From assembly GCF_003841465.1 (NCBI RefSeq), contig NZ_REFZ01000004.1:62001-126000 (forward strand): 64,000 bases of DNA. The letters are read 5' to 3'. This stretch comes from Natrarchaeobius oligotrophus (lineage in GTDB: Archaea; Halobacteriota; Halobacteria; Halobacteriales; Natrialbaceae). A program made the translations under genes and the position numbers. Under the pieces are notes generated by a model that was given only the letters and a program-made list of their open reading frames with translations, was not told the origin of the DNA and did no database searches. This document shows positions 3 to 21,907 of the stretch, one piece after another. The first letter of the stretch is position 1, and each line of letters begins with the position of its first letter.

Positions 3-2036
3 GACAGGAACGCCCTCCGAGCGGCGCTTTCGGACGTGCTCGCACTGCGTCTCGAAACGGCGGTCGACGAACTCGAGCGAGGGGAGTACGAGGCGGCCGA
101 GGCGGTCGTCGACGACGTCTACCGGGTCCGAGTCGAGCAGTATCGGACGATCGTCGATGCGACGGGCGGGTACGATTCCGAAGACCGTCCCGTAGACGAA
201 CCGACGCCAACGGAAGCGTTCGATCGGGCCGGAATCGATCTACGTACCCTTATCACCGCGCTCGAAGCGTACGACGAAACTCAGCGCGAGTACGAACGGG
301 CGATCGAGCGCGGCGACGAAGAGACGGGACTCGACCGCGCACGCGAACTCGACGTGCTGGCGGCCGACGTCGCCGCGGCGAACGAGAGCGTTCAGAAACA
401 GGTCGCCGCGGCCGATCCCGTGACCGACGTCGATCTCGACGCCTCCTCCGATCGCCTCGAAACGGTCGATCGTCGCATCCAGCGGGAGCTGGCTGACGTT
501 CGATCGAGTCAGTTCGAGACGACCACGATGACTGCCGATGCCGACGCCGACGCGGTTTCGGTGACGGATTCGATCACGGTGTCCGGAACGGTTCGCGTCG
601 AAAACGAGAGTCGGTCGGACGACGAAACCGACCGATGGCCGGCAGACGATCCACTCGTCGTCGAAATCAACGGGAACGGACACGAACTCGACGATCACGA
701 CGACGGACGGTTTAGCGTCGAGTATCGGCCACGTCCGCTCGCACCCGCGGTCGACGAATTGCGCGTCCGGTACCGTCCGTCTCCCGGCGTCGACAACGTC
801 GGAAGCGAAGCGACCGTCCCCGTCTCGATCGAACCGATCGAACCGTCGCTCGAACTCGAGAGCACCGACGAGGTCGCGTACGGAGAGACGGCGTCGTACG
901 CGGTCCACCTCACGGCGGGCGACGACGCCGTCGACGGCGCGCCGATTACGGTGTCACTCGGCGACACCGAACTCGAGACGGTAACCACAGTCGACGGCAC
1001 GGCGACCGGTGAGGTGACGGTTCCCGCGTCAGTTCCCGCGGGTGAACGAGAACTTTCCGCGCGGGTCGCGGTCGACGAGCGAGCGATCGAACCGGCGGTG
1101 GTTCGAAACCAGGTGACCGTCCGCGAGCGTGAGACTCGACTCGGAATCGGCTCGGCGCGACTCGACGACGGAATCCGGGTCGGAGGGGTACTGACGACCG
1201 CCGACGGGACCCCCGTTCGCGACCAGCCGGTGGTGCTGTCGGTCGACGAAACCTCCGTCGTCGTCACGACGGGCGAAGACGGCCGCTTCGACGAGACCGT
1301 TTCGACGTCGACGTCGGACGAGGAACTGACGGTGAACGCGACGTACGACGGTGCCCATACCAACCTGGCGTCGACGAGCGCCGAGACGAGCGTCGGCGGT
1401 CAGCGATGGGGGACGCTCTCGTTCCTTCCCGCCGGACCGGTGATCGCACTCGTGGTTTGTCTCGTCGTCGGAGGCGTCCTCGTCGGTGTGTGGGCACTCG
1501 GAAGATTCACCCGCGGTCCCGACCCGCTCGCGCGCTTCGTTCGCTCGAGGATCGGCCCCGTCTCTCAGCAGCGACGGTCGATCGACGAGCGAGCGGTTCT
1601 GGTCGAGGAATCCGACGAACCGAACCCGGTGGACGACCGGGAACCGACCGACGCCGGCGATTCGAGTAGCGGCGACGGACGCGTTGACGATACCTCGAGG
1701 CGCGTAGACGAACTGCTCGATCGAGCGTCCGATCACGTCTCGCGGGGGCGGCCAAACGAGGGCGTCCGGTTGGCGTATACGGCGGTTCGGCTGGCGCTTC
1801 GATCGACGATCGACGACGACAGGACGAACACCCACTGGGAGTTTCGACGGCGGTACTCGGGCCCGCACGAGGACGAACTCGCGCACATTACCGAACAGTA
1901 CGAACGCGCGGCGTTCGGACGCGAAACGGTGACGGAGGAGGTTGCCTCGGACGTCCTTCTGGACGCCTACGCGCTCGTCAAACTCGTCGACGCTGACGCC
2001 TCCGACGACCTCGAGGAGATTTCCGTCGAGCGTTGA
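3..2036 (+). CDS. Membrane-anchored surface protein with Ig-like domains and DUF4129-type tail (5' partial)
   Basis: The reading frame is open to the left edge, so the true start lies outside the window; the GTG at 36 is only the first internal candidate. The visible part begins with an alpha-helical acidic region. Beta-rich segments follow, including one like a carboxypeptidase-regulatory or Ig-like fold (encoded around 1180-1370, ending in a TYDG motif). A single hydrophobic segment is encoded at about 1420-1500. The charged cytoplasmic tail ends in a helical domain containing AYTAVRLALR and HWEFRRRY, resembling the DUF4129 domain often attached to transglutaminase-like surface proteins. 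The function is not known. The next gene starts 34 bp downstream on the same strand, so the two may be co-transcribed. Confidence 0.75.
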   Translation, partial: DRNALRAALSDVLALRLETAVDELERGEYEAAEAVVDDVYRVRVEQYRTIVDATGGYDSEDRPVDEPTPTEAFDRAGIDLRTLITALEAYDETQREYERAIERGDEETGLDRARELDVLAADVAAANESVQKQVAAADPVTDVDLDASSDRLETVDRRIQRELADVRSSQFETTTMTADADADAVSVTDSITVSGTVRVENESRSDDETDRWPADDPLVVEINGNGHELDDHDDGRFSVEYRPRPLAPAVDELRVRYRPSPGVDNVGSEATVPVSIEPIEPSLELESTDEVAYGETASYAVHLTAGDDAVDGAPITVSLGDTELETVTTVDGTATGEVTVPASVPAGERELSARVAVDERAIEPAVVRNQVTVRERETRLGIGSARLDDGIRVGGVLTTADGTPVRDQPVVLSVDETSVVVTTGEDGRFDETVSTSTSDEELTVNATYDGAHTNLASTSAETSVGGQRWGTLSFLPAGPVIALVVCLVVGGVLVGVWALGRFTRGPDPLARFVRSRIGPVSQQRRSIDERAVLVEESDEPNPVDDREPTDAGDSSSGDGRVDDTSRRVDELLDRASDHVSRGRPNEGVRLAYTAVRLALRSTIDDDRTNTHWEFRRRYSGPHEDELAHITEQYERAAFGRETVTEEVASDVLLDAYALVKLVDADASDDLEEISVER

Positions 2037-2070
2037 TTCCAGTTCCGATCAGTTTATTATTACGCGAACG

Positions 2071-3150
2071 ATGCAAGAGCGTATGGGGACTGGCCTGCTG
2101 TCTCGGTTCTCGACGCCCCTCTCGAAACGGATTTTTGCTCCGGATATCGTCGCCGTCGTCTGCGTCACGGCGTTGACGAACGCCGTGATCTTCCTCCCGA
2201 TCCTGAGAGAGAGCGCGTTGCGGGTGCCGTTCGGACTCGCGTTCCTCTTTTTCGTCCCCGGGTACGCGTTCGTCGCGGCGCTGTTTCCCGAGGACGAGTC
2301 CAGGTCGACCGTCTCGGATCGCACCGCTCGAGTGACGCAAACCGAATCCGAGACGGGTGACGGGGGAATTTTCGGAGTCGCATCGAAAACGGGAATCGAC
2401 TGGGTCGAACGGCTGGCGCTTTCGTTCGGTCTGAGTGTCGTGATCGTGACGCTGCTCGGCTTGCTTGGTGATCTCTCGTCGTGGTCGGTTTCTCTCGAGA
2501 TGATCGCGTTTTCCGTCACCGGATTCGTGCTGGTCTGCAGCGGTGTCGCCGTTGTACGCCGTCAGCGCCTGGCACCAGCGGATCGGTTTCGGCTACCGTT
2601 GGGATCCCACCTTTCCGCCGGTAAGAGTGGGCGAACCGACGGCGAACTACGGATCGATACGCTCGCGAACGTCCTCTTGATCGCTTCGATCGTGTTCGCG
2701 TTCGGAATCGGTACTCTCGCCGTCGCCGCTCCGGCGGGTGGCGAACAGTTTTCGACGGTGTCGATCGTGACTGAAAACGACGACGGAGAGATGGTTGCCG
2801 ACGGATATCCCTCCGAAATCGACCACGGCGACGACTTCACGGTGTTCGTCGACCTCGGAAACCGAGAGCACAGGGAGGTGACGTACACTGTCGTCGTCCT
2901 CGAACAGCGCCTCGGTGATGGGGGATCGAACGAAACGTCCGTCTCGGAACAGCGAGAACTCGACCGATTCGAGACGACGCTGGCACACGGCGAGTCCGGC
3001 GTCTACGAACAGAACGTCGAGCCGACGACGACGGGCTACGTACGCGTCGCCTGGCTACTCTACCCGGACGACGTGCCATCGGAGCCGTCGCTCGAAAATA
3101 CGGAGTATCACGTTCACCTGTGGTTGAACGTGATCGAATCCGACGACTGA
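2071..3150 (+). CDS. DUF1616 family membrane protein
   Basis: About 359 residues. The N-terminal third carries several hydrophobic segments, including RVPFGLAFLFFVPGYAFVA, which is the hallmark of DUF1616 proteins. These are common in archaea next to surface-glycan and secretion loci; their function is unknown. The C-terminal half follows a further membrane segment and is a beta-rich extracytoplasmic domain with the DUF1616-type pattern (TVSIVTE, YTVVVLEQR, and a WLNV ending). Two in-frame ATG codons exist, at 2071 and 2083. A TATA-like TTATTATTA at about 2053-2061 would favour 2083 if the mRNA is leaderless; 2071 is given as the longer form. The 3' end overlaps the convergent gene by 37 bp. 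Confidence 0.8.
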   Translation: MQERMGTGLLSRFSTPLSKRIFAPDIVAVVCVTALTNAVIFLPILRESALRVPFGLAFLFFVPGYAFVAALFPEDESRSTVSDRTARVTQTESETGDGGIFGVASKTGIDWVERLALSFGLSVVIVTLLGLLGDLSSWSVSLEMIAFSVTGFVLVCSGVAVVRRQRLAPADRFRLPLGSHLSAGKSGRTDGELRIDTLANVLLIASIVFAFGIGTLAVAAPAGGEQFSTVSIVTENDDGEMVADGYPSEIDHGDDFTVFVDLGNREHREVTYTVVVLEQRLGDGGSNETSVSEQRELDRFETTLAHGESGVYEQNVEPTTTGYVRVAWLLYPDDVPSEPSLENTEYHVHLWLNVIESDD

Positions 3151-3638
3151 TCCGCACCTCTCGCGTTTCGATACCGCCGGAGTGCAAGCGCGAGCGTGAT
3201 CGCGACGAGTGCCGGCCACCGATCGCTACTCCGAAAGAGCCCGGCTGCGGGCGGTTGGTACCCGGAGATCGGCCAGAAGACGGCGTAGGTGTTTCCGGAC
3301 CACGTGATCAACAACGAATCGAGTACGTGGTGTGAGCCCGAACCGACCGCGAGAAGAGCCGCGACGCGTACTCTGTAGCCGGGGGGAACCATCAACGCGC
3401 CCAGCGCGATCAGAACGATCGACCCACCGAGCGTATGCAACGCAGCCCACTCCCAGGGGAGTCCGGTGACAGCGGTAACCGTCTCGTCGCTGACGAGAAG
3501 CCCGATCTTTTTGACGTCCGGTAACACCGCTCCGATCATCACCACCGTCACGTGACGCGAATCGGCCCACTCGTAACGAATGGCGATCAGTGAACCGAGA
3601 ACGTAGCCCGCCAGCACGTGCGTCAGCAGATCAGGCAT
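3114..3638 (-). CDS. Metal-dependent hydrolase-type membrane protein (DUF457/YdjM family)
   Basis: About 174 residues with four or five hydrophobic segments. The N-terminus MPDLLTHVLAGYVLG and the later GAVLPDVKK match the conserved His and Asp motifs of the DUF457 (YdjM, LexA-binding inner-membrane hydrolase-like) family. A third His-containing motif, LHTLGGSIVL, is also present. The ATG at 3638 places the first motif right at the N-terminus; a GTG three codons upstream is an alternative. The start overlaps the stop of the upstream gene by 8 bp, implying translational coupling. The substrate is unknown. Confidence 0.8.
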   Translation of the reverse strand: MPDLLTHVLAGYVLGSLIAIRYEWADSRHVTVVMIGAVLPDVKKIGLLVSDETVTAVTGLPWEWAALHTLGGSIVLIALGALMVPPGYRVRVAALLAVGSGSHHVLDSLLITWSGNTYAVFWPISGYQPPAAGLFRSSDRWPALVAITLALALRRYRNARGADQSSDSITFNHR

Positions 3639-4083
3639 CTCGCTCACCGCTCCGATCGCATCGCCGCTCCACGTCGGGTTCTTTCACCGAGGGTCCCCCA
3701 CGCTCCGTTTCCTCGGCCGTCGTTCGGCTCCGCCGTTTCGTGAACGACCGCAGTGGTCGGTGGTGCGACCGCGGAACGAACGTCCACCGCCGGAGGTCGA
3801 ACCGAAACCCCTGGACGGTTCTGACAGCCACCCAGAGGCAACCGACGACCGAGACGGCGTACATGTAGTACACCTCCCACGGCTCGCGGGAACCGGGCCA
3901 CTCGCGAAGCGGGAATACGGCCTCGAGCGCCACCGGGTTTCGAACGGTATCGCCACGGGAGATCGCCTCGAGTATTGTGGGTTTACTCGATCCGTACCAG
4001 ATCGGAAGTGCAACGAGGGCGGCGACGAGTATCGAGAGACAGAGCAGTCGTCCGCACCGACCGAGTGACTTCATTGCCGACAT
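3631..4083 (-). CDS. Small membrane protein of unknown function
   Basis: A 150-residue protein with two predicted membrane segments, one near residues 13-30 (LLCLSILVAALVALPIW) and one near 75-92 (YYMYAVSVVGCLWVAV), then a basic, low-complexity cytoplasmic tail. I do not recognise a family. It is coupled to the downstream DUF457-type gene by an 8-bp overlap and lies divergently from the lasso-peptide gene B1. Its promoter region and that of B1 share the AT-rich interval 4084-4214. Confidence 0.55.
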   Translation of the reverse strand: MSAMKSLGRCGRLLCLSILVAALVALPIWYGSSKPTILEAISRGDTVRNPVALEAVFPLREWPGSREPWEVYYMYAVSVVGCLWVAVRTVQGFRFDLRRWTFVPRSHHRPLRSFTKRRSRTTAEETERGGPSVKEPDVERRCDRSGERDA

Positions 4084-4214: not shown

Positions 4215-4523
4215 ATGGGGGAATCCAACCTCTCGGAATCGGACGAAGTCGTCGCGAGCAACGATCATCTCTCGACGAATATCGACGGTGAAACGGTGAT
4301 TTTACACCTCGATTCGGGAACGTACTACGGCCTCAACGAAGTCGCCTCCGAGATCTGGAGTCGACTTCAAGAGCCACGAACGGTCGGTGAACTATGCGAA
4401 GAGATACTCGCAACGTACGAGATCTCTCCCGATCGGTGTACGAACGACGTCGAGTCGGTGCTGGCCGATCTAGCCGACGCCGATCTCGTCGAGATCGAAA
4501 GAAACTGCGACGGCGGTTCCTGA
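4215..4523 (+). CDS. Lasso peptide biosynthesis B1 protein (PqqD-like RiPP recognition element)
   Basis: A 102-residue stand-alone PqqD/RRE-like protein. The pattern of beta-strands followed by winged-helix-like helices is visible: VILHLDSGTYYGLNEVASEIW, then the helix pair TVGELCEEILATYEI and CTNDVESVLADLADADLVEI. In lasso pathways this protein binds the leader of the precursor and presents it to the peptidase and cyclase. It is followed after 10 bp by the B2 gene and then by the cyclase, which fixes the assignment. An AT-rich stretch (about 4160-4212) immediately upstream is the likely promoter of the B1-B2-C unit. Confidence 0.9.
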   Translation: MGESNLSESDEVVASNDHLSTNIDGETVILHLDSGTYYGLNEVASEIWSRLQEPRTVGELCEEILATYEISPDRCTNDVESVLADLADADLVEIERNCDGGS

Positions 4524-4533
4524 ATCTACAGGT

Positions 4534-5019
4534 ATGGGCCGAGTATACGGGTTTCTGAGGATCTCCTCGGGAGACAAGTTCAGAGCGTTGCTGGCGGCGG
4601 CGTTACTCGTCGCTGTCCGATTCAGTTTCGTACTGGTGTCGTTCGCCTCGTGCAGACGAGTGTTGATCGGGACGACTGCACGGCTGTCACCGATCGTCCC
4701 CGGCTCACCACCACCGGCCCGCGTCGCGTGGGCCGTAGACGCGACGGATCGGAATCTTCCGGGGAGTCGAACCTGTCTGATGCGGTCGCTAACGTCAGAG
4801 GCGATTCACCGACTGTACGACCACGACGTCGTCCATCAGATCGGTGTCGATCCGATCGGTGATGAGCGTCCCGACGGTCTGGAACCTGCGGGCACACCCA
4901 ACGGCGGATTCGAAGCCCACTCTTGGATCGAGTGTGAGGGCGAGGTTATTCTCGGTGACCTGGGTGATCTCTCACGCTTCGAACCGCTACCGCCACTGAA
5001 CGGAACCGAACGATCGTGA
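4534..5019 (+). CDS. Lasso peptide biosynthesis B2 protein (transglutaminase-like leader peptidase)
   Basis: A 161-residue protein of the Transglut_core3 (PF13471) type, the cysteine protease that removes the leader from lasso precursors. A hydrophobic N-terminal helix (about residues 18-38) precedes the catalytic part. The candidate catalytic Cys is in SRTCLMRSL (Cys81), the His in FEAHSWIE (His129), and an Asp follows in LGDLG (around 142), in the order and spacing of the family. The gene lies between B1 and the cyclase. Its last codons overlap the cyclase start as GTGA, so the two should be translated together. Confidence 0.92.
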   Translation: MGRVYGFLRISSGDKFRALLAAALLVAVRFSFVLVSFASCRRVLIGTTARLSPIVPGSPPPARVAWAVDATDRNLPGSRTCLMRSLTSEAIHRLYDHDVVHQIGVDPIGDERPDGLEPAGTPNGGFEAHSWIECEGEVILGDLGDLSRFEPLPPLNGTERS

Positions 5020-6893
5020 GCGGAATTGCCGGCGTCTTCGACCGATCACGTGGCGGCGTCGATCCCGACGTGATCGAGACGATGTCCGAATCGATCGCTC
5101 ACCGTGGCCCGGACGGGGGCGGACGCTGGTGTGACGAGCGCGTGGGGCTCGGCCACCAGTTACTGGCGACGACGCCGGAGGCGTCGTTCGACGCGCAGCC
5201 GCTTCGGGACGGACAGTTCGTCGTTACAGCCGATGCCCGCATCGACAACCGGGCCGAGCTGCTCTCGACGCTCTCGATTTCGAAACCGGCCCACCGGATT
5301 CCCGACAGCGAACTGTTGTTGCGAGCCTACCGCCGGTGGGGGAAGCGGTGCGTCGAGCGACTGATCGGCTCGTTCGCGTTCGCCATCTGGGACGCGAACG
5401 AGCGCACCCTCTTTTGCGGACGCGACCGCGTCGGCGTCAAGCCGTTTTATTACCACCGGACGGACGATCTGCTGGCGTTCGCCAGCGAACCGAAGGCGTT
5501 GCTATCCCTCTCCAGTATCGATGGAGTCGTCGACGAGGCGAAAATCGGCGAGTTCCTGACCGGTGCGTTCGATGACGAAACGCGATCCTATTACGAATCG
5601 ATCGCGCGGCTTCCGCCCGCACACACGATGACGGCCGGTCCGTCCGACGTCGACGTTCGTCGCTACTGGACGCTCGATCCGACCAGAACGATCACGCTCG
5701 AGTCGGATCGAGCGTACGAACGGCGTTTTCGTGAGCTACTCGAACGGGCCGTCCGGTGTCGTCTCCGATGCGACGGCCCCGTCGGCTCCGACCTCAGCGG
5801 CGGTCTGGACTCGTCGTCGATTACGGTCGTTGCCCGCGACCTGTTGCCGTCGGATGCGCCGTTACACACGTTTTCGAACGTCTACGAAAACGCGCCCTCG
5901 AGCGACGAACGCGAGTTCATCGATACGGTGGTCGAACGCGAGGGAATCGACCCGCACTACGTCTTCGCTGGCACGGCAGCACTCCCCGATCGAGCGAGCG
6001 TACGGACGTACTTCGATCGACCGCCGCACAACACGTTACACTTCGCGAGGTGGGAGAAAACCAAGCGCGCACGAGACGTCGGCGTCGACGTGATGCTCGG
6101 GGGCGACCTCGGGGATAGCGCGGTCGGCTACGGGCTCGGACTGTTGCCCGAACTGTTTCGAACCGGCAGGCTTCGACACCTTTTCAGCGAGCTCCGCGCG
6201 ATCAGCGATCTCGTCGATACGCCAGTACGACAACTCTTCGTGAGACAGACGCTCTATCCGATGGTTCCGGAGTTCGTTCGGTATCGGTACCGACGGCTTC
6301 GGAACCGGCCCGTTCTCGAGGAGGAGGCAAACCCCACGCTGTCGCCCGAATTCGTCGATCGGACTGATCTCCGATCCCGGTACGCCGCGGCCACTGCGAC
6401 GGGAACGACGCTCACGCGCACGGACCGGGAGTGGCAGTGGCAGTCGATCACGGCGGCGACTAACGCCGCGAACTTCGAGACGACCGATCAGATCGCCGCC
6501 GCGTTCGGCATCGAGCCGCGGTATCCGTTCACCGATACGCGTCTCCTCGAGTTCTCGCTGGCGATACCGCCCACACAGCGCCTCTCGAACGGAATGACTC
6601 GATCGATCCTCCGTCGGTCGCTTTCCGATCTCCTTCCCGACCGAGTTCGCACTCGGCCCTGGAAGACCATGATGAACGAAGCGTTCTGGAACGCCCTCGC
6701 CGAGGAAGAGCCGAGACTACGAGCGCTCACTGCCGATCCCGGTCCGCTCGAGCGGTACGTCGACGTCGTCGACCTCGAAGCGGCGCTCGAGCGATTCGAC
6801 GACCGGCCGACGACCCGCGACGCCCGGGCGCTCTGGCGGGCGCTCTCGCTCGCGACGTGGCTCGAGACGACTTCGGCGTCCGATCACCCGTAG
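5016..6893 (+). CDS. Lasso peptide macrolactam synthetase (asparagine synthetase-like, McjC-type)
   Basis: A 625-residue protein with the two-domain asparagine synthetase B plan. The N-terminal Ntn-hydrolase-like domain starts MSGIAGVFDR and carries the RGPDGGG and GVKPFYYH motifs. The C-terminal ATP-pyrophosphatase domain carries SDLSGGLDSSS near residue 260. In lasso clusters this enzyme adenylates the Asp/Glu side chain and closes the isopeptide bond with the new N-terminus. Residue 2 is Ser, where glutamine-hydrolysing asparagine synthetases have the catalytic Cys, so the glutaminase half is probably inactive, as expected for a cyclase. The GTG start is set by the GTGA overlap with B2. 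The precursor gene follows after a 131-bp AT-rich gap. Confidence 0.93.
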   Translation: MSGIAGVFDRSRGGVDPDVIETMSESIAHRGPDGGGRWCDERVGLGHQLLATTPEASFDAQPLRDGQFVVTADARIDNRAELLSTLSISKPAHRIPDSELLLRAYRRWGKRCVERLIGSFAFAIWDANERTLFCGRDRVGVKPFYYHRTDDLLAFASEPKALLSLSSIDGVVDEAKIGEFLTGAFDDETRSYYESIARLPPAHTMTAGPSDVDVRRYWTLDPTRTITLESDRAYERRFRELLERAVRCRLRCDGPVGSDLSGGLDSSSITVVARDLLPSDAPLHTFSNVYENAPSSDEREFIDTVVEREGIDPHYVFAGTAALPDRASVRTYFDRPPHNTLHFARWEKTKRARDVGVDVMLGGDLGDSAVGYGLGLLPELFRTGRLRHLFSELRAISDLVDTPVRQLFVRQTLYPMVPEFVRYRYRRLRNRPVLEEEANPTLSPEFVDRTDLRSRYAAATATGTTLTRTDREWQWQSITAATNAANFETTDQIAAAFGIEPRYPFTDTRLLEFSLAIPPTQRLSNGMTRSILRRSLSDLLPDRVRTRPWKTMMNEAFWNALAEEEPRLRALTADPGPLERYVDVVDLEAALERFDDRPTTRDARALWRALSLATWLETTSASDHP

Positions 6894-6990
6894 GTCAGTT
6901 CGAAGCGTCCGCGGTCGTCTCCTCACGCAGTTCTACTGCCCTCCCGGATGGTTCGGCGAGGGTGATCTCAAGTGTATGATTGCAATGGGA

Positions 6991-6999
6991 AAATTTATG
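6991..6999 (+). promoter_or_regulatory. Candidate TATA box of the lasso precursor gene
   Basis: AAATTTATG lies about 27-30 bp before the precursor ATG at 7025, the spacing expected for a leaderless haloarchaeal transcript. The surrounding 6965-7024 interval is far more AT-rich than its flanks. This suggests the precursor has its own promoter, separate from the B1-B2-C unit, as is usual where the precursor must be made in excess. Confidence 0.55.
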
Positions 7000-7024
7000 T
7001 TAGTATAACCTGTATAACAACCTG

Positions 7025-7168
7025 ATGTCGAGAGAATCAAACGACACGTACGAGAGTCCGAAGGTAACCGAATTCGGCTCAGTGGAATCGTTAACCGAGA
7101 GCGACAAGGTCGGCACCGGCGAAGACGAGTACTCCGGAGCGACGTCGCTCACCGGCTCCGTCGTGTGA
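7025..7168 (+). CDS. Lasso peptide precursor (47 residues)
   Basis: Very short gene recognised from its context and leader. The leader has Tyr9, Pro12, a hydrophobic residue at 14, Gly18 and Thr24, which fits the YxxPxLxxxGxxxxxT pattern bound by lasso B1 proteins, with exact spacing. If Thr24 is the usual penultimate leader residue, cleavage after Glu25 gives a 22-residue core starting Ser26-Asp-Lys. The core then has Glu at core position 8 and Asp at position 9 as ring acceptors. The tail carries Tyr36 and ends Gly-Ser-Val-Val. It lies directly downstream of the cyclase, with its own TATA-like element, and converges on the kinase gene 118 bp away. The family assignment is strong; the exact cleavage site and ring size are inferred. 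Confidence 0.85.
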   Translation: MSRESNDTYESPKVTEFGSVESLTESDKVGTGEDEYSGATSLTGSVV

Positions 7169-7286
7169 GCGTCCGACGAGAACGAACGACAGTTCGAGCC
7201 GGTGAGCCCCACCGAAACGAACTCGATCTCGCTGGATAACCGTCACGATCGCACTTTTATTCGACGAAAGCGGAGCAGCGGACGCT

Positions 7287-8240
7287 TCACTGATGCGAGA
7301 GGTGAGTACGCCCGCTCGAGTGAAGATCGTCGACGACTGCCTCGACGAGAGCCGGTAACGACCGGTGATCCCTGGGTCGCCGAAGCCGCCGAAACGGACA
7401 CGTTTTCGCGATCGTCGTGCACTGGCGGAAGTTCACCGCAGTCGCGTCGGTTTCGGCGAGCATTCCACCCGTGTACGTCCGTGAAACCAGCTGGGACACC
7501 CGCTCGTGAGGATCGAGACGATCGATAGCGAGGGAATCGTCCTCCTCGAGAAGGTAACAGGCTGCGAGCGGTGCCGGTCGCCGAGCGGCGTCGAACTGCT
7601 TGTATCGCTTCTCGGAATCGGCGTCGCTGGCCGGACCGGTCGTTCCCTCGACGTCGAGCGCCTCGACCGCGTCGGGCATCAATCGAAGCTGGGGAACGCC
7701 CGGCAGTACCGCTGGATGGCTCTCGTCGACCCTGATGCCGACGACGTCGTCTTCGAGAATCGTATGGCCGGCGGCGTCGAACGCAGCAGCCGTCGTCGAC
7801 TTTCCGGCACCGCGGGGACCGAGGAAGACCGCGGCTCGTCCGTCGACGGCCACGGCGCTCGCGTGGAGAACGAGCTGTCCACGCTGGTGGAGAAGCACGC
7901 CCATCATCTCGTTCTGGAAGAGGCGACGAACGATCTTCGGCGGCACCGCTCCCGGCGTCGTCTCGAATTCGGCTACCGGATCGAACGACACGCGTCTCCC
8001 GTCCTCGACGAGGAACGTACCGATCGTGTCGTACGACAACCGACACGTATTCGGACCGGCCCGAATCCGGCGTCCGCCTTCGCCGGCGACGGACGTCGGA
8101 ACGGGATCGAGTTCGTCTCGGCGTAGTTCGACGTCGATCGCCTCGGCGGTTCCTTCCACCTGTGGAAGTTCCGGAAGCGAGAACGTCGATTCGATCGTCA
8201 GTCCGTACGCCGTATAATAGGTCAGTGCGACGTTATTCAT
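7287..8240 (-). CDS. HPr kinase-like protein of the lasso cluster (paeninodin-type kinase relative)
   Basis: A 317-residue protein with the HprK-related kinase fold. A beta-rich N-terminal half leads to LHASAV near residue 125 and the P-loop GPRGAGKST at about 141-149. An acidic LEDDVVGIR motif at 162-170 is the expected catalytic Asp region. In paeninodin-type lasso clusters, relatives of this kinase phosphorylate the precursor on its C-terminal Ser. Here the precursor ends Ser-Val-Val, so the target residue may differ. The gene is last in the minus-strand arm, after the ABC exporter, and has its own possible TATA element upstream. Confidence 0.85.
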   Translation of the reverse strand: MNNVALTYYTAYGLTIESTFSLPELPQVEGTAEAIDVELRRDELDPVPTSVAGEGGRRIRAGPNTCRLSYDTIGTFLVEDGRRVSFDPVAEFETTPGAVPPKIVRRLFQNEMMGVLLHQRGQLVLHASAVAVDGRAAVFLGPRGAGKSTTAAAFDAAGHTILEDDVVGIRVDESHPAVLPGVPQLRLMPDAVEALDVEGTTGPASDADSEKRYKQFDAARRPAPLAACYLLEEDDSLAIDRLDPHERVSQLVSRTYTGGMLAETDATAVNFRQCTTIAKTCPFRRLRRPRDHRSLPALVEAVVDDLHSSGRTHLSHQ

Positions 8241-8260
8241 ACCACACGTACGTTATCATA

Positions 8261-8270
8261 AGTATTTAGT
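8261..8270 (-). promoter_or_regulatory. Candidate TATA box of the kinase gene
   Basis: Read on the minus strand, ACTAAATACT is centred about 26 bp before the kinase ATG at 8240, in an AT-rich pocket within the 186-bp gap behind the ABC exporter. This is consistent with a leaderless transcript for the kinase in addition to read-through from the exporter. Confidence 0.4.
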
Positions 8271-8426
8271 GATTCGTAAATTTTCCCGGCGAACGTCGAT
8301 CGTTTCCGATCGTCGATTCGGACGGCGGTCGAGCGAGAGCGGCTGTACCGACGTATCGGTCCGACCGCAGGACAGGCGCGGTTGCACCGCTCCGGACGTA
8401 CGACGGACCGTCCGGACCGACGACGG

Positions 8427-10250
8427 TCACGTCGACGGCGGCGTCTCGAGTTGTGAATCGTACAGCGCCGCGTAATGGGACTGGCCGTGGACGAGTTCTC
8501 TGTGGGTACCCGATTCGACGACCTCACCCCCGACGAGCGTGTAAATTCGATCGGCGTCCCTGACGGTCGATATCCAGTGGCCGATGACGATCGTCGCGTA
8601 GTTCCGGTCCATCCCTTCGATGCCCTCGAGAATCGCGTCCTCGGTCGGTGAATCGAGTTCACTCGTTGCCTCGTCGAGAACGAGTACGTCCGCGTCCGTC
8701 AGGAGTGCTCTTGCGATCGCGACGCGCTGTCGTTGTCCGCCCGAGAGTCGGACGCCGTCGTCTCCGATCCAGCTATCGAGGCCGTTCGGGAGGTCGTCGA
8801 GGAAGGCCGACACTCGACTGATCTCGCAGACGCGATCGACCGCCGCGTCGCTCGCGTCCTGATTTCCGACGGTCAGATTGTATCGGAGTGTCCCCGTGAA
8901 AAGAAAGGGGTTCTGGGGGACGACGGCCACCCGATCCCGCCAACGCCTACGATCGATTTCGTCTAACGCGACGCCATCGACGAGGACGGATCCGTCGTCC
9001 GGCTCGTACAATCCGGCGACCAACGAAACGATCGTCGATTTACCGGCACCCGAGGGACCGACCAGCGCGATCGTCTCGCCGCGTTCGACGGACAGATCGA
9101 CGTCGCGTATGCTCCCGGAGTGAGATCCGGTAGCCGCATCATCGTATCGAAAACGAACCCCGTCGAACTCGAGCGTCGTCGCCGGGGTCGGCGGCGGATT
9201 ACCTGACGTTTGCTCGGCGTTGCGCCCGAGGTCGTCGACGAGACGCTGCGTTCGGACCAGATGCGGAAGCGCACCGTCCAGCGAGTAAATAGTATCGTTA
9301 ATTTGACTTATGAGCGGTGAGAGTCGAAACATCGCGAACAGAAAGACACCCAGTGCGGCGAACGACAACGCCAGATACTCGATAGCGAGGTACACGAGCG
9401 CGAATACGACGAACGCGTTGAGTAGCTGATTGAACTTTCCCAGCGCGATCTTGTTTCGCTCGAGTCTGACTCGCGTATCGACGAGTCGATCGTGAGCGCG
9501 ACGGTACCGCTCGTTCAGATCGCCGCGCATGGCGAACAGCTTCGTTTCGCGTCGGCCCCGAACGCCGGCGTTGATCAGCGACTGAATCTCTTCGTTGGCG
9601 GACGCGATCTCGTCACCGATCCGGTAGCCCGGCGTGAGTACGTATCGCGTGAGAAAGACGACGGCTCCCAGGACGACGACCGTCATCATCGTCAGCACGG
9701 GCGACAGTACCAGCGCGACCGAACCGTACGCGATCGCAAAGAACACCTTCTCCACCGCGCCGAGCAGGTCGGTCAGGACGCGTGCGGATCGTTGGGTTTC
9801 GGTTACGATCGTGTTCGTCACCTCGTCGGAATCGACCCCGTCGACGTACGAAATTTCGGCGGTCAACAGGGCCTCGTAACACTCCCGTCTGAGGTGTGCC
9901 ATGTATCCGGTCACGAGCGACGCCTGCAGCCACCCGACGAGAAAGCTCGCGCCGAATCGGATCGTCATCACGACGGCGAGACCCAGGATCAGCGTCTCGA
10001 GCGTCGCGGTGACGCCGATCGCATCGTAGAACTGGACGAACGTTCCGACCAGCTCCGACGGTTCGTCAGCGAGGTCGCCGTCCGTCTGTGCCGCTTCGAT
10101 GATCGGGAGCAAAAACGTCAGCCCGATCCCCTCGAAGAGAGCAGCGAACAGTTTCATCGCGAGAAGCGCCGCCGCGTGCGCCGGCCGATAGCGGACGACC
10201 CGCTCGAGCGTTCGAACCTTCTCGCGCAGATTCAATCGTGGTTCACTCAT
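8427..10250 (-). CDS. ABC transporter, fused permease-ATPase (lasso peptide exporter, McjD-like)
   Basis: A 607-residue half-transporter. The N-terminal membrane domain has six predicted helices (roughly residues 20-330). The nucleotide-binding domain carries Walker A GPSGAGKST, signature LSGGQRQR, Walker B VLVLDEATSELDS and the switch His in VIGHWIST. Such exporters are the D component of lasso clusters, providing secretion and self-immunity. It lies between the nucleotidyltransferase-like gene (18 bp upstream) and the kinase. A general peptide or lipid exporter would look the same; the assignment to the lasso peptide rests on context. Confidence 0.9.
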   Translation of the reverse strand: MSEPRLNLREKVRTLERVVRYRPAHAAALLAMKLFAALFEGIGLTFLLPIIEAAQTDGDLADEPSELVGTFVQFYDAIGVTATLETLILGLAVVMTIRFGASFLVGWLQASLVTGYMAHLRRECYEALLTAEISYVDGVDSDEVTNTIVTETQRSARVLTDLLGAVEKVFFAIAYGSVALVLSPVLTMMTVVVLGAVVFLTRYVLTPGYRIGDEIASANEEIQSLINAGVRGRRETKLFAMRGDLNERYRRAHDRLVDTRVRLERNKIALGKFNQLLNAFVVFALVYLAIEYLALSFAALGVFLFAMFRLSPLISQINDTIYSLDGALPHLVRTQRLVDDLGRNAEQTSGNPPPTPATTLEFDGVRFRYDDAATGSHSGSIRDVDLSVERGETIALVGPSGAGKSTIVSLVAGLYEPDDGSVLVDGVALDEIDRRRWRDRVAVVPQNPFLFTGTLRYNLTVGNQDASDAAVDRVCEISRVSAFLDDLPNGLDSWIGDDGVRLSGGQRQRVAIARALLTDADVLVLDEATSELDSPTEDAILEGIEGMDRNYATIVIGHWISTVRDADRIYTLVGGEVVESGTHRELVHGQSHYAALYDSQLETPPST

Positions 10251-10268
10251 CTGGTGACACTCGATAGG

Positions 10269-11480
10269 TTACTGTCGGCCGATCTTGCGGCCGGAACCGG
10301 TCAGCAATCGGGTCAGGACCGCTCGTCCGATCCGAAAGCCGCGTACGACGGCGTACAGTGGAACGAGTGGACGCGGGAGCGACACGAGCTCTATCTCCCC
10401 CCGGTCGGGCTCGACTGCGCCTTTGATCCAGAACGCGATTCTGTCCCGGCGTTTGTCGAGGGTTCGTGCCTGATACCGTTTCTCGTCCAGGTACCAGTAC
10501 GACGCGTCGTCGAACAGCCGGTCACGAACGTGAGTGGTCAGTGATTCGATCTCCGGATCGGACTCGATCGCTCGACGAACGGACGCCGGGAGCTCGAGAC
10601 CGAGAACCCGGTCGGTGACCGAAAGCCCAAGGTATAGCATTCGTTCGCGGTTGTGGCGTCTGGCTCGTTCGATCACCGTCTCCCAGTCGAACGAGTGCGA
10701 GCGAACGTACGCGCTGACGTCACAGATCCACATGAAACGTTCCCAGCGGTGGCGCGTCCCGTGAACGCAAAGCGTCAACAGCCGATCCTCGTCTGAGAGG
10801 ACGGGAACGTCGGTTCCAGCGACCGAAAGCGTCGACCGACGGTCCCAGACCGTCTCCAGACGAATTGCGGACGGGAATCGTCGCGAGACGACGCGCCAGT
10901 GCAGTTCGACCTCGAGCGGCTCGTTGCGGTGGGTAAACGCGTAGTCGCGGCTGTAACGCGCGTATGCCCACCGTTGGCGCTCGGTCAACTCGTCGGTCGT
11001 CTCGAGGACGAAGCGGTGTTCGTATCCCCTGTCGAGAAGGATCGATCTGAGCGCTGGAATCTCCTCACGCGAGACGAGAAAGTCCAGATCGCCGAACGCG
11101 CGTCGACCGACCGACCCGAGTGCGACCTCGCTGACTATCGGCCCGCGGTACGGAATCGCCCTCACGCCTTCCGCTCGAAACGCCGACGAAAGCGATGCGA
11201 CTTCCTGAAGCATCCGAAGGTTCCGTCGTGACACCTGTCGGCTACGGTCGGCGAGCGATTCGAGCGTCTTTTTCGGCATCGATCCGACGGAGTGCTCGCG
11301 TACCGCCTCGAGGACCAGCGAACTGAGCCCGTGTCGTATCGTTAGCTCTCGTACTCGGTCCCAGTCCACGCGGTCGTCCGTCCAGTCGAACCGCGCCGGT
11401 CGTTCGCCGGCGGCGGCTCTGGCGCACTCGGTGACGAACCGTTCCGCCGTCCGCTGTGTTTCGTTTCCCCTACAATTCAT
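10269..11480 (-). CDS. Nucleotidyltransferase family protein of the lasso cluster (NTP_transf_5-like)
   Basis: About 403 residues. The diagnostic segment is AFGDLDFLVSREE, a GD-x-D-type nucleotidyltransferase motif, followed by EVELHWRV and the DRLLTLCVHG/RWERFMWICDV region typical of PF14907 proteins. Members of this family recur in lasso clusters that also contain a HprK-like kinase and an ABC exporter; their reaction there is unclear. The ATG at 11480 is preferred over a GTG five codons upstream. It is followed 18 bp later by the exporter gene, so they likely form one operon. Confidence 0.85.
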   Translation of the reverse strand: MNCRGNETQRTAERFVTECARAAAGERPARFDWTDDRVDWDRVRELTIRHGLSSLVLEAVREHSVGSMPKKTLESLADRSRQVSRRNLRMLQEVASLSSAFRAEGVRAIPYRGPIVSEVALGSVGRRAFGDLDFLVSREEIPALRSILLDRGYEHRFVLETTDELTERQRWAYARYSRDYAFTHRNEPLEVELHWRVVSRRFPSAIRLETVWDRRSTLSVAGTDVPVLSDEDRLLTLCVHGTRHRWERFMWICDVSAYVRSHSFDWETVIERARRHNRERMLYLGLSVTDRVLGLELPASVRRAIESDPEIESLTTHVRDRLFDDASYWYLDEKRYQARTLDKRRDRIAFWIKGAVEPDRGEIELVSLPRPLVPLYAVVRGFRIGRAVLTRLLTGSGRKIGRQ

Positions 11481-11556
11481 GATATGGTAAGACACACCAT
11501 CATTTCAGTACGCTACTGGTCGGTGAGACGAAGTCCCTCTACGTGTTTCGACCGCA

Positions 11557-11706
11557 TCACGACGAATCCGACGTAACGCAGGCGACGATCTGTGGGATTT
11601 CACACTCTCGACAGATGAGTGCGGGTCGACTTTTGTGAGTGCCTCGCTCCAGCGCCAACCCGCAGTTCGGACAGACAGTCTCGTCCGGAATTTCGTCTAG
11701 ATCCAT
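11557..11706 (-). CDS. Small zinc-ribbon protein (49 residues) heading the minus-strand lasso arm
   Basis: Short gene starting at the ATG complementary to 11704-11706. It carries two Cys-x-x-Cys knuckles, CPNC at residues 12-15 and CREC at 32-35, the pattern of a four-Cys zinc ribbon, plus a further Cys at 43. A well-placed TATA element (11727-11737) sits about 26 bp upstream of the ATG. The nucleotidyltransferase gene begins 76 bp downstream on the same strand. It could be a regulator or an accessory factor of the lasso cluster. Small zinc-ribbon proteins are abundant in haloarchaea, so a link to the pathway is inferred from position only. Confidence 0.65.
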   Translation of the reverse strand: MDLDEIPDETVCPNCGLALERGTHKSRPALICRECEIPQIVACVTSDSS

Positions 11707-11737: not shown

Positions 11738-11823
11738 TAGTGATTTAATCCGTATTTTTATTACCACTGTCGATACAATATCAACGATCATATAATAATG
11801 TACTCGTGGAAGAGATTCAATCG

Positions 11824-11834
11824 AAATATAAATA
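11824..11834 (+). promoter_or_regulatory. Candidate TATA box of the epimerase gene
   Basis: AAATATAAATA is centred about 28 bp before the ATG at 11858. This spacing supports 11858, not the in-frame ATG at 11798, as the real start. Confidence 0.55.
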
Positions 11835-11857
11835 GTGGAAACAAACAATCGGCTGGT

Positions 11858-12793
11858 ATGGAACTTTCCGATCGGAGCGTCCTCGTGACCGGCGGCGCGG
11901 GACTCGTTGGATCAGCACTGGCCCGCCGACTCGCCACCGAGAACGACGTTCTGGTAGTCGACGACCTCTCGAACGGTGTCAGGGAGTCCGTTCCAGAGGC
12001 GGCCGAGTTCGTCGAGGGAGACGTCGCTTCGGACGAGACCCTAGAACGCGTCGTCACGTCGGATCTCGACATCGTCGTCCACTGTGCCGCAGCCGATAAG
12101 TACGTCAACAGCGACGAACCGCGCTCACAGTTCGAGTCGAACGTCGCGATGACGCACTCGCTGCTCGAGCGCGTGAGCACCGTCGGCGTTTCGGACGTCG
12201 TGTTCACCTCGTCGTCGACCGTATACGGCGAAGCACCTCGGCCGACGCCGGAAGATTACGCACCGCTCGAGCCGATCAGCGTCTACGGAGCGGCGAAACT
12301 CGCCGAGGAATCGATACTCTCGGTGTACGCACACACCCGTGACGTAACCGTCTGGAACTTTCGGTTTGCAAACGTCGTCGCGCCTCGCGTCGGCGCAGGG
12401 GTGATTCCGGACTTCGTCGAGAAACTCGAACGCGATCCGGAGACGCTGACGATTCTCGGCAACGGTCGACAGGAAAAATCGTACATGCACGTCGAAGACT
12501 GCGTCGATGCGATCCATCACGTCGTCGAACGCGCGCCATCGTCGGCGGGACCGATGCAGACGTACAACCTTGGAACGAAAACGACGACGTCGGTCGATCG
12601 GATCGCCGACATCGTTAGCGAGGAGATGACGCTCGACCCGGCCTACGAGTACACGGGAGGTGATCGCGGCTGGACCGGCGACGTCCCCAAAATGCGTCTC
12701 TCCATCGAGAAACTCGCGGCACTCGGGTGGGAACCAGAACACAGTAGCGACGAAGCGGTACGGAAGGTTGCGAGAGAACTGGTTCGACGCTGA
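11858..12793 (+). CDS. NAD-dependent epimerase/dehydratase (extended SDR, GalE-like)
   Basis: A 311-residue extended short-chain dehydrogenase. The nucleotide-binding motif GGAGLVGS lies at residues 12-19. SSSTVYGE and the catalytic Tyr-x3-Lys in SVYGAAKLAEE follow. The C-terminal part has GNGRQEKSYMHVEDC and YNLGT, typical of UDP-sugar 4-epimerases and related sugar-nucleotide enzymes. The start is chosen by the TATA box and by the SDR fold beginning at once. It opens the surface-glycan island, followed 59 bp later by a flippase; the product probably supplies an activated sugar for that glycan. The exact substrate cannot be read from sequence. Confidence 0.88.
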   Translation: MELSDRSVLVTGGAGLVGSALARRLATENDVLVVDDLSNGVRESVPEAAEFVEGDVASDETLERVVTSDLDIVVHCAAADKYVNSDEPRSQFESNVAMTHSLLERVSTVGVSDVVFTSSSTVYGEAPRPTPEDYAPLEPISVYGAAKLAEESILSVYAHTRDVTVWNFRFANVVAPRVGAGVIPDFVEKLERDPETLTILGNGRQEKSYMHVEDCVDAIHHVVERAPSSAGPMQTYNLGTKTTTSVDRIADIVSEEMTLDPAYEYTGGDRGWTGDVPKMRLSIEKLAALGWEPEHSSDEAVRKVARELVRR

Positions 12794-12852
12794 GCCCGAA
12801 CAACTCTACCTATCATGATACGCACAACAGTACGGTTACACCGATCCGCCCG

Positions 12853-14319
12853 ATGACCGGGACGGATACGCTCGTTTCGCGGTTCAAAATCGAGTTGGGG
12901 GGTCAGCTGGTCGCGGCGATCTCGGGCGCGTGTTTGATCGTCGCACTCGCTCGCTTTCTCGAACCCGAAGCGTACGGACTCCTGTTCTTTGCGATCTCGA
13001 TTCTGTCCGTCCTGATGGTGGCGACGAAGCTCGGAATCGGGCGGTCTGCCGGACGCTATCTCTCCGAATACAAGGAAACGGATCCCACGCAGATCCCACA
13101 CATCGTTCGGACGTCGCTTCTGTTGAATCTCGGGACGATTATCGTCGTTGGCGTCGGTCTCTTGGTCGGACACCGGTTGCTCGCGGACCTGGTAGGAGAG
13201 CCCGAGCTCGCTCCACTTCTGGCTCTCGGCGTCGCGTACGTCGCGTTCGGAACGCTCACCAAGTACGTTCGGCTGGTTCTCCAGGGCTTCGAAGCCATCG
13301 AACTGGCGGCAATTGTTCACGCGATCGACCGCGGCGGACGACTGCTGTTTGCGATTGCGCTCGTCGTCTCAGGGTTCGGTGCGGCCGGTGCGCTGGGCGG
13401 ATATATTCTGGGGTACGTGTTCGCTACCGGAGTCGGACTCGGGTTGATTTACACCCGGTACTATCGAACCGTTCGAGAAGTCGGCCCTGTCGAGCCGAAC
13501 CTCCGTCGTCGAATCGCGGAGTATACAGTTCCGCTAACGGCGACGAGCACGGCGAACGTCGTCGAAAAGCAGATCGATACGGTACTGGTCGGATTCTTTC
13601 TTACGCCGGTTGCGGTGAGCTTCTACGTCATCAGTAAACAGGTCGTCGAGTTCGTCGAAAAGCCGGCGACTGCGCTCGGGTTTACGCTCTCGCCAACGCT
13701 CGGAGCCGAGAAGGCCAGTGACAATCTGGATCACGCTCGCGAGATCATCGAGCTGGCGCTCGTCAAATCGCTCCTGTTGTACGTGCCCGCTGCCGTCGGC
13801 CTGATACTCGTCGCCGAGCCGACCATCCACCTCGTTTTCGGCGTCGAGTACGCCGGTGCGGTTCCCGTCCTCCAGATACTGGGAGTGTACGCCGTCTTTC
13901 GCACCGTGACGAAGGTCGTCGGCCACGGCCTCGATTTCATGGGCCGAGCCCGCGACCGTGCGATCGTCAAAGGGGTGACTGCTGCGCTCAACGTTCTGTT
14001 AAACGTCGTGTTAATTCCGCGAATCGGCGTTACCGGAGCCGCGATCGCGACGGTCACGACGTACGGAATCTTCACCGCCGCGAACCTGTACTTCGTCCAC
14101 GCCGAACTCGGGCTTCGCACCGGATACCTCCTCAGACAGATCTCGCTCGTCGCGGGGGTAACCGTGGGTATGGCGGCCGTCGTCTCGTTTTTCCTGACGT
14201 ACGTCTCGAGCGCGCTGTCGCTCGTGGTCGTCGTCGCGATCGGAGCGTTCGTCTGGGGAGTACTTTCAGTCTCCACGGGTCTCCTCGATCCGAACGCTCT
14301 GATCTCGCGTGTGACGTGA
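12853..14319 (+). CDS. Oligosaccharide flippase (Wzx-like, polysaccharide biosynthesis family)
   Basis: A 488-residue polytopic membrane protein with about 12-14 predicted helices. The N-terminus FKIELGGQLVAAISGACLIVALARFLEPEAYG is characteristic of the PF01943/RfbX-type flippases. These translocate lipid-linked oligosaccharides across the membrane for protein glycosylation or exopolysaccharide export. The central TSTANVVEKQIDTVLVGFFL segment is also typical. It stands between the epimerase and a large membrane protein in the same direction and fits the glycan island. Confidence 0.9.
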   Translation: MTGTDTLVSRFKIELGGQLVAAISGACLIVALARFLEPEAYGLLFFAISILSVLMVATKLGIGRSAGRYLSEYKETDPTQIPHIVRTSLLLNLGTIIVVGVGLLVGHRLLADLVGEPELAPLLALGVAYVAFGTLTKYVRLVLQGFEAIELAAIVHAIDRGGRLLFAIALVVSGFGAAGALGGYILGYVFATGVGLGLIYTRYYRTVREVGPVEPNLRRRIAEYTVPLTATSTANVVEKQIDTVLVGFFLTPVAVSFYVISKQVVEFVEKPATALGFTLSPTLGAEKASDNLDHAREIIELALVKSLLLYVPAAVGLILVAEPTIHLVFGVEYAGAVPVLQILGVYAVFRTVTKVVGHGLDFMGRARDRAIVKGVTAALNVLLNVVLIPRIGVTGAAIATVTTYGIFTAANLYFVHAELGLRTGYLLRQISLVAGVTVGMAAVVSFFLTYVSSALSLVVVVAIGAFVWGVLSVSTGLLDPNALISRVT

Positions 14320-14442
14320 CGTTCGCACCCACTCTCGAAGGGGAGACGGTTCCGAGCGATAGATTGACTGGCCGCGTTCGAGTAATCATACAACCGTATT
14401 TTCACAAAATTTATCACCGGTAGATGCGGCAACTCTACACGA

Positions 14443-16284: not shown

Positions 16285-16991
16285 TCCGTCCCCCACTTCG
16301 TATCGGCGGGCGGCGTTCCGTCGAATTCACCCTCTACAAGTTTCCGCCGTCGCGTCATCCAATCCTCGTGTCTCACGAGCACGCGGACCGGTATCTCGTC
16401 CAGACCGAGAACCTTCGCGATGAACAGCCGATGGTTTCCGTTTCCGTTGAAGATCACGTCTCCGTTTCGTCCAATATTCACGCAGACCTGATCGAGTCCG
16501 TCGTCGGTTCTGTATCCGTCGTCGCGTATCTGCTGGTAGAGTTCGTCGATCTCCCGATACCGGCGCACGACATCCGCTTTCGTCGTACATCCGTCGTAAC
16601 TTCCCTTTCGCTCGGCGAGTTCGAGAATGTGTTCGTATATGTTCGTTTCCTCCCACGGGATTCCGCGTTCGTACCGATCGACGACCGCGCTGTACTTTCG
16701 AAGTTCGTTCACGGGTACCGTCTCGAGATCCCAGTCGCCACCGCGGACTGTTGCACCCGCGTAGTATGCGAGGCTGAACGTCCCTCCGTACCGAAACGGA
16801 TTGTTCGTAAACCGTCCCCCGTACCACTCGATCACGGACGGATCGACGTCGATCGTTTTGTACGGATGGGGGTAGTGATCTCTCCGACGAGCGAGTCCCA
16901 GGCGAACGTACCGAAGGGTGTACGTCGCCAGGATGGCGGCGATGGCGGTCGCGATTCGGAGCGCTTCATTCCACAACGTCCTGATAAACAT
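16236..16991 (-). CDS. ParB/sulfiredoxin-fold-like protein with N-terminal membrane segment
   Basis: A 251-residue protein. A hydrophobic N-terminal segment (about residues 9-24) may anchor it. Near residues 165-205 the run GRNGDVIFNGNGNHRLFIAK and VPVRVLVRH has the shape of a ParB N-terminal-like fold, where a GNHRL motif takes the place of the GxxR-type nucleotide-binding loop. Proteins of this kind occur in haloarchaeal glycan clusters, with no established role. It is the last gene of the operon from 21.6 kb downward and overlaps the upstream glycosyltransferase stop by 26 bp. A plasmid-partition role is unlikely, since no ParA or plasmid genes are nearby. Confidence 0.65.
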   Translation of the reverse strand: MFIRTLWNEALRIATAIAAILATYTLRYVRLGLARRRDHYPHPYKTIDVDPSVIEWYGGRFTNNPFRYGGTFSLAYYAGATVRGGDWDLETVPVNELRKYSAVVDRYERGIPWEETNIYEHILELAERKGSYDGCTTKADVVRRYREIDELYQQIRDDGYRTDDGLDQVCVNIGRNGDVIFNGNGNHRLFIAKVLGLDEIPVRVLVRHEDWMTRRRKLVEGEFDGTPPADTKWGTDHPDLDDVVVAENISS

Positions 16992-21611: not shown

Positions 21612-21907
21612 ACTGATTCTCATTGGGGGTTGATTGATCGGGTGACGACCTCCGAGGGGCGAACGCCGTCGCTCAAACACCTGCGGAAGATCCTGCTTAT
21701 TTTACACCCGAACAGGTAGAACATTATTCGAACACTCCATTCATATATCTATCGAACCATCATTATTACTGTAGAAACAATATTGTTTTATCGAGTATCC
21801 GGGGGAGTTCTGTCGTGGCGTGTACGATACCTGTCTCGACCGTTCCCGCAGATATCGCGGGCTACCGAATCGATCGAGAATCTCGGCTCCCTGGGTGCGA
21901 GGAAACG

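Follow-up and report, generated by a model that had tools for sequence, protein, structure and literature searches.

Phosphorylated lasso peptides of the paeninodin type are described from Bacillota, and bacterial kinases of a similar sort to the one reported here modify the C-terminal Ser in the case of paeninodin and an internal Ser in the case of Bsf and LPP (PMC9266682, PMC10368454, PMC13381572). The paeninodin and LPP clusters of Bacillota sit in capsule loci (PMC13381572), and the published range of lasso rings is seven to nine residues (PMC8498205). In archaea, haloarchaeal lasso clusters are already known as predictions, for example on pHALXA01 of Halopiger xanaduensis, and a lasso cluster has been named on a plasmid of the same strain (PMC10093198). 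A 2025 survey merely lists lassopeptides among archaeal RiPP clusters, and our searches of open-access text turned up no archaeal lasso peptide that has been characterised.

A complete lasso-type cluster in the window

The window, by which we mean the whole stretch of 64,000 nucleotides of Natrarchaeobius oligotrophus DNA analysed here, contains a complete lasso-type cluster at 4215-11495, with B1, B2, C and A on the + strand and the kinase, ABC exporter and nucleotidyltransferase genes on the - strand:

4215-4523, + strand: B1, stand-alone RiPP recognition element (PqqD fold); Pfam PqqD 77.8 bits
4534-5019, + strand: B2, leader peptidase, transglutaminase-like; NCBIfam lasso_biosyn_B2 73.5 bits, cut-off 33
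5016-6893, + strand: C, asparagine-synthetase-like lasso cyclase; NCBIfam lass_lactam_cya 606 bits, cut-off 525
6994-6998, + strand: TATA-like TTTAT box, at -31 from the precursor ATG
7025-7168, + strand: A, precursor peptide; leader through Glu25, predicted core Ser26-Val47
7287-8240, - strand: K, HprK-like peptide kinase; HprK_rel_A E 1.5e-8, under its cut-off
8427-10250, - strand: D, MsbA-type ABC exporter; Pfam ABC_tran and ABC_membrane
10269-11495, - strand: N, nucleotidyltransferase (NTP_transf_5); Pfam PF14907 202.9 bits

The lasso set, namely a B1 recognition element (RRE), a B2 cysteine peptidase and an ATP-dependent cyclase, is thus present together. B1 scored 68.5 bits against NCBIfam lasso_PqqD_Bac, under the cut-off of 80; lasso RREs are among its closest structures, and the closest solved one is TbiB1 5v1u (E 5e-13). 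B2 is the sole B2 match of the source genome, and its Cys81 and His129 are conserved in all 32 aligned B2 proteins. The cyclase gene starts with GTG, its 5' end overlapping the 3' end of B2, and the protein retains S261-G-G-x-D265-S; AlphaFold2 predicts its fold with confidence (pLDDT 91.3), and its top PDB matches are asparagine-synthetase-fold enzymes. The kinase has His126, Lys147, Asp164 and Asp165 in 38 of 38 aligned copies, the H-K-D-D residues named for lasso kinases (PMC9266682), and Asp136 and Asp138 of N are conserved in 30/30. PHROGs gave no match for A, K or N.

The precursor gene begins 131 bp past the cyclase and is a 47-codon ATG open reading frame with the translation MSRESNDTYESPKVTEFGSVESLTESDKVGTGEDEYSGATSLTGSVV. 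Pfam gave no match for it, and the lasso leader model NF033521 of NCBIfam scored 19.8 bits, barely above the cut-off of 19. Residues Y9, P12, V14, G18 and T24 sit at the positions that the initial annotation gave them, and the leader shows [Y/W]xxPx[L/V/I] with Thr at -2. Under the strict leader pattern A is the single fitting ORF in the window, and 40 simulated windows of 64 kb gave two such ORFs in all. A TATA-like box lies within -48 to -20 in 24 of the 33 related precursors described below, whereas 500 shuffles gave 3.4 on average and 9 at most. A chance ORF was ruled out by the NF033521 score, the rarity of the leader pattern in the simulations and the excess of TATA-like boxes; the 47-codon gene at the side of this cluster is genuine. 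Its initial reading as a lasso-type precursor is borne out by the leader score and by the adjoining B1, B2 and cyclase. That reading had been made dependent on conservation of the gene beside other haloarchaeal lasso cyclases, and relatives indeed adjoin related cyclases in 20 other genomes.

Of 21 further loci of the family, 20 have the kinase, 18 the exporter and 12 the nucleotidyltransferase. Absence of the kinase from N. chitinivorans (L031), the one exception, was ruled out, since a kinase gene is present on another contig. Beyond N, the region 11798-21680 includes genes for an epimerase, glycosyltransferases, a UDP-glucose dehydrogenase and a flippase; the epimerase was matched in 9 of the 21 family loci, with at least 58% identity in six. 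By analogy with the capsule loci of Bacillota, a surface role of the product is possible. Upstream of B1, the genes at 36-4083 (DUF4129, DUF1616, YdjM-type and one further, at 3631-4083) could be accessory or immunity genes, and each of the four was matched in 5 to 7 of 21 family loci. Beside the nucleotidyltransferase, 11557-11706 holds a 49-aa zinc-ribbon ORF that resembles the HVO_A0556 family (29 bits, under the cut-off of 65) and recurs in 2 of 21 family loci.

Relatives of the precursor and their cyclases

Of 391 genomes sampled from the class, 33 contain B2, and in 31 of these the match is above the cut-off. A profile of 21 precursors gave full-length matches in 14 of the 391, exactly those supplying it, and matched only the leader elsewhere; full-length matches came from 5 of 170 genomes in a first further family (G421 new) and from 6 of 146 in a second (five new). 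Within the window's own family, 11 of 125 genomes have a cyclase that passes the model's cut-off; two precursors came from G410, one of a different kind (L099) from G404, and one additional precursor was read at L159. The leader pattern and the profile together yielded 33 precursors from 21 genomes (the window's and 20 other haloarchaeal ones), which become 20 when cores at least 70% identical are collapsed. Excluded from the 33 are L065 (same genome as L031), L051 (chance K-x5-D, no cyclase) and L099 (sister cyclase); alignment A2 omits L161. Because the set was chosen by the K-x5-D pattern, its Lys-Asp spacing is partly due to selection, and the independent statement is therefore that all 22 loci with a clade-type cyclase hold at least one K-x5-D precursor. 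A leader-only scan of those loci returned three canonical precursors beside second cyclases, several noise-like ORFs and one possibly real linear-type precursor (L043 5935-5801).

Cyclases beside Lys-Asp precursors form one clade (24 rows; SH-aLRT 99-100 in quick trees without bootstrap), apart from the canonical ones, and have Arg274, His338, His342, Ser477 and Thr528 as clade-specific residues. Restriction of K-x5-D to Halobacteria was ruled out by precursors of other archaea of the phylum, adjoining cyclases 34-39% identical to C of the window: Lys and Asp are six apart in three precursors of L178, one of L179 (with a copy in L180) and one of L221. The Asp would be residue 10 in the L178 precursors, and the L178 and L179 cyclases, those placed in the tree, branch outside the haloarchaeal groups. 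At L197, also from an archaeon outside Halobacteria, the core has no Lys and would form a plain nine-residue ring; no precursor was found at L199 (second cyclase), L220 or L198. The L099 precursor, beside its sister cyclase, has Lys exactly at Thr+2. As a bacterial control, the leader pattern applied to 11 Sphingobacteriaceae loci gave only three believable precursors (L242, L243, L244), a number that does not allow a base rate to be estimated. K-x5-D is absent from all three; an acid occurs at 7-9 in two of them, and Ser is the final residue in two.

Several other small precursors were seen in the same material. A second, canonical type with Gly1 and Asp8 and the core GxHFSxVDGNSGTTGNRG occurs at L038 14838-14692, L044 4278-4412 and L100 8028-8159, with its own cyclase alongside, in genomes that also carry the Lys-Asp type, and L162 9238-9116 (genome G002) encodes a short lasso-like precursor with the core GTGGGDFDAFATGSP, again with Gly1 and Asp8. 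Loci L045 to L058, apart from L047, L051 and L055, hold near-identical precursors of the form MKEYETPSVETYGTVEEKT-N-WWDHDDGYGKWS (e.g. L045 9098-9196; the L050 form is slightly different), which adjoin B1, B2, kinase, exporter and nucleotidyltransferase; a cyclase match was obtained in 0 of 18 cyclase-less loci tested. This type is perhaps a haloarchaeal linear counterpart in which B2 replaces the SipW-type peptidase of the Bacillota LPPs. L036 14726-18429 encodes six or more short precursors whose leaders are near-identical and whose short tails mostly carry GSEP; there is no cyclase at this locus. The ORF at L051 12034-12177, a leader followed by a core of about 20 glycines, adjoins B1, B2, kinase and nucleotidyltransferase and is likewise without a cyclase.

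Predicted cleavage, ring and phosphorylation of the core

Four codons of the precursor bear on its processing:

7097-7099, + strand: Glu25 codon; predicted cleavage after Glu25 by the Thr(-2) rule
7106-7108, + strand: Lys28 codon; Lys invariant, 33/33
7124-7126, + strand: Asp34 codon, predicted ring acceptor; Asp invariant, 33/33
7157-7159, + strand: Ser45 codon, candidate phosphorylation site in a Gly-Ser close to the C-terminus; GS in 31/33

The register of Tyr(-17), Pro(-14) and Thr(-2) is fixed in all 33 precursors, with Gly also at a constant distance from Thr, and matches the Tyr -17 to Leu -12 register reported for a lasso leader (PMC10368454). The residue after the leader Thr is Glu in 16 and Gln in 13 of the 33. 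In each of genomes G344 and G104 one B2 was found, and the locus holds a canonical Thr(-2)/Gly1/Asp8 precursor as well as the Lys-Asp type; this points to cleavage of both at Thr(-2) by one and the same peptidase. The fixed register favours the cleavage initially predicted, and the alignment supports a putative 22-residue core Ser26-Val47 cut by the Thr(-2) rule.

Within the core, the distance from Lys to Asp is six residues in 33 of 33 precursors, with a Gly two after the Lys in 31; no report of this Lys-Asp pattern was found in the open-access text. The residue preceding the Lys is Asn in 18, Asp in 12, Glu in 2 and Leu in 1. The stretch between Thr and Lys is free in both length and sequence (3 residues in 14 precursors, 4 in 9, 5 in 3, 6 in 5 and 7 in 2). 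Numbering by Thr(-2) cleavage places the invariant Asp at core residue 9 in the window's precursor, while 19 of the 33 have it at 10 to 13. At the position of Glu33, just before this Asp, E occurs in 11, T in 9, D in 4, S in 4 and other residues in 5. Glu8 and Asp9 had initially been named as two candidate acceptors; Asp9, i.e. Asp34, holds up, and Glu8 is not its equal because the Glu33 position varies while Asp34 is invariant. Glu33 as an equal acceptor was thus ruled out (E in only 11/33), and conservation points to Asp34, at core position 9, as the acceptor common to all three ring readings weighed below. The predicted ring size fits the precursor of the window, where Glu8 and Asp9 both fall within 7-9, but cannot be adopted as it stands, since Asp and Glu are absent from core residues 7-9 in 17 of the 33 when Thr(-2) cleavage is assumed. 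Both this misfit and the invariant Lys28 were absent from the initial annotation. Its suggestion that a very polar core would suit a hypersaline medium is a generic one.

The cluster encodes a kinase that has the H-K-D-D residues, which makes the +80 Da forms proposed at the outset plausible; the peptide is probably phosphorylated. From its conservation, Ser45 of the Gly-Ser would be the best candidate site. The two G080 precursors lack Gly-Ser though the G080 locus has a kinase, which counts against Gly-Ser as the target.

We consider it likely that the product of the cluster is a lasso-type RiPP with one macrolactam on Asp34, phosphorylated and exported; we infer its chemistry, including any threading, from gene content, conservation, register and cyclase clade. 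B1 would bind the leader motif YESPKV and B2 would cut past Glu25, with Thr24 as -2, to free the 22-residue core Ser26-Val47. Using ATP, the cyclase would then activate the Asp34 side chain and form a single macrolactam on it, and the HprK-like kinase would phosphorylate the peptide, most likely on Ser45. The phosphate might be decorated by the nucleotidyltransferase, and the product would leave through the ABC transporter.

The invariance of the Lys-Asp pair, together with the 17 relatives without an acid at 7-9, implies either rings of 9 to 13 residues closed from the N-terminus, or cleavage elsewhere than at Thr(-2), or a ring between Lys and Asp. Our tentative preference, to which we give a little less than an even chance, is a plain lasso in which the alpha-amine of Ser26 would be joined to Asp34 in a nine-residue ring around a threaded tail, the same enzymes making rings of 10 to 13 in relatives with longer spacers. 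The N-terminal amine is the one used by characterised lasso cyclases (PMC8498205, PMC11212047), a nine-residue ring suits 14 of the 33 relatives, the window's precursor among them, and the caulosegnins show that one enzyme set can make rings of both 8 and 9 residues (PMC13352647). However, the 17 relatives would fall outside the published range (PMC8498205), the invariant Lys is left unexplained, and the tail of A, lacking Arg, Trp, Phe and His, offers no bulky plug residue. Moreover, paralogues of unequal spacer are served by one clade cyclase and one B2 in four loci (L037, L038, L047, L156); the two paralogues of G344 have spacers of 3 and 4 residues, those of G275 of 4 and 5. A side-chain macrolactam would account jointly for the fixed cleavage register, the constant Lys-Asp spacing and the free variation between Thr and Lys: B2 would again cut at Thr(-2), but the epsilon-amine of Lys28 would be joined to Asp34 in a seven-residue ring, leaving a free N-terminal tail, short and variable in length. 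By our own count this ring, which would be identical across the family, has 26 atoms, the same as an eight-residue lasso ring closed by Glu, so that the C-terminal tail could thread it, and K-x5-D recurs beside more distant cyclases in five archaeal precursors from outside Halobacteria (L178 x3, L179, L221) and in L099. We hold this arrangement to be possible but somewhat less likely, since the open-access text yielded no lasso cyclase that uses a side-chain amine, invariance of the Lys could instead mean substrate recognition, and the archaeal relative at L197 has no core Lys. If true, a Lys-Asp side-chain ring would be new for lasso cyclases.

Cleavage away from Thr(-2) appears unlikely. The core would then start at Asp27, where Asn or Asp occurs in 30 of 33 precursors (Asn 18, Asp 12), and all rings would have eight residues; a start at Lys28 itself would make them seven residues. 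Either way the distance to the acceptor becomes constant, and L099, with its Lys at Thr+2, has Asp at 7. Seven-residue lasso rings do exist, as in the xanthomonins. Yet B2 would have to cut at a shifting distance from the invariant Thr, despite the Glu or Gln that follows Thr in 29 of 33, none of the positions counted varies more than the alternative P1 (entropy 3.06 bits), and in G344 and G104 the same single B2 apparently serves canonical Thr(-2) precursors. Far less probable still is a linear phosphopeptide with no ring, the cyclase acting on another precursor. Kinase, nucleotidyltransferase and exporter do make up the LPP set (PMC13381572), and haloarchaeal loci of similar make-up lack a cyclase match (18 of 18 cyclase-less loci tested), but the precursor lies only 131 bp behind the cyclase and the core type goes with the clade of this cyclase in every one of the 22 loci. 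The choice between a plain lasso and a ring on Lys28 bears on how these enzymes work, as the 33 natural precursors, with their invariant Lys-Asp pair and varying N-terminal spacer, constitute a natural test of ring-size control and amine choice, and the four loci in which paralogues of unequal spacer share one clade cyclase make the question directly testable.

Comparison with known systems

The paeninodin-like phosphorylated lassos of Bacillota (PadeK/ThcoK) share with the window A, B1, B2, C, kinase, nucleotidyltransferase and ABC exporter. The H-K-D-D residues of the kinase are common to both, and both clusters adjoin surface-polysaccharide genes. The paeninodin RREs favour WxxP (PMC13381572), whereas the Lys-Asp family has YxxP, with Tyr in 33 of 33; the paeninodin-like peptides have a final Ser, whereas the precursor of the window ends in Val and a C-terminal Ser occurs in only 5 of 33 family members. 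Those systems are bacterial, while this one is archaeal with a core of the form K-x-G-x3-D. Bsf of Bradymonas has the Tyr-17 to Leu-12 leader register and the separate B1 and B2 in common with the window, and its kinase acts on an internal Ser, but its ring is Gly1-Asp8 after Ile(-2) (PMC10368454), in contrast to Thr(-2) and an Asp at core 9-13 in the Lys-Asp family. The LPP systems share the kinase, the nucleotidyltransferase, an MsbA-like exporter, a discrete RRE and a YxxP leader; they have no cyclase and use a SipW-type peptidase (PMC13381572), whereas B2 and a cyclase of 606 bits stand beside the precursor in the window.

Closer to home, the canonical haloarchaeal precursors with GxHFSxVDGNSGTTG (L038, L044, L100) come from the same organisms and share the leader register, and their cyclases are sisters to those of the Lys-Asp clade but lie outside it; Thr(-2) is followed there by Gly1 and Asp8, with no ring Lys. 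As to Halopiger xanaduensis pHALXA01, its precursor (L042 11642-11803) is absent from the gene table of PLSDB, a table known to have gaps. At L182 8211-9053 PLSDB gives the kinase region as two opposite-strand hypothetical proteins and no precursor, unlike L042, where the kinase ORF is continuous and 299 aa long. The cluster on this plasmid (NC_015658) is itself a member of the Lys-Asp family, with a B2 annotated as lasso and a cyclase 55.6% identical to that of the window.
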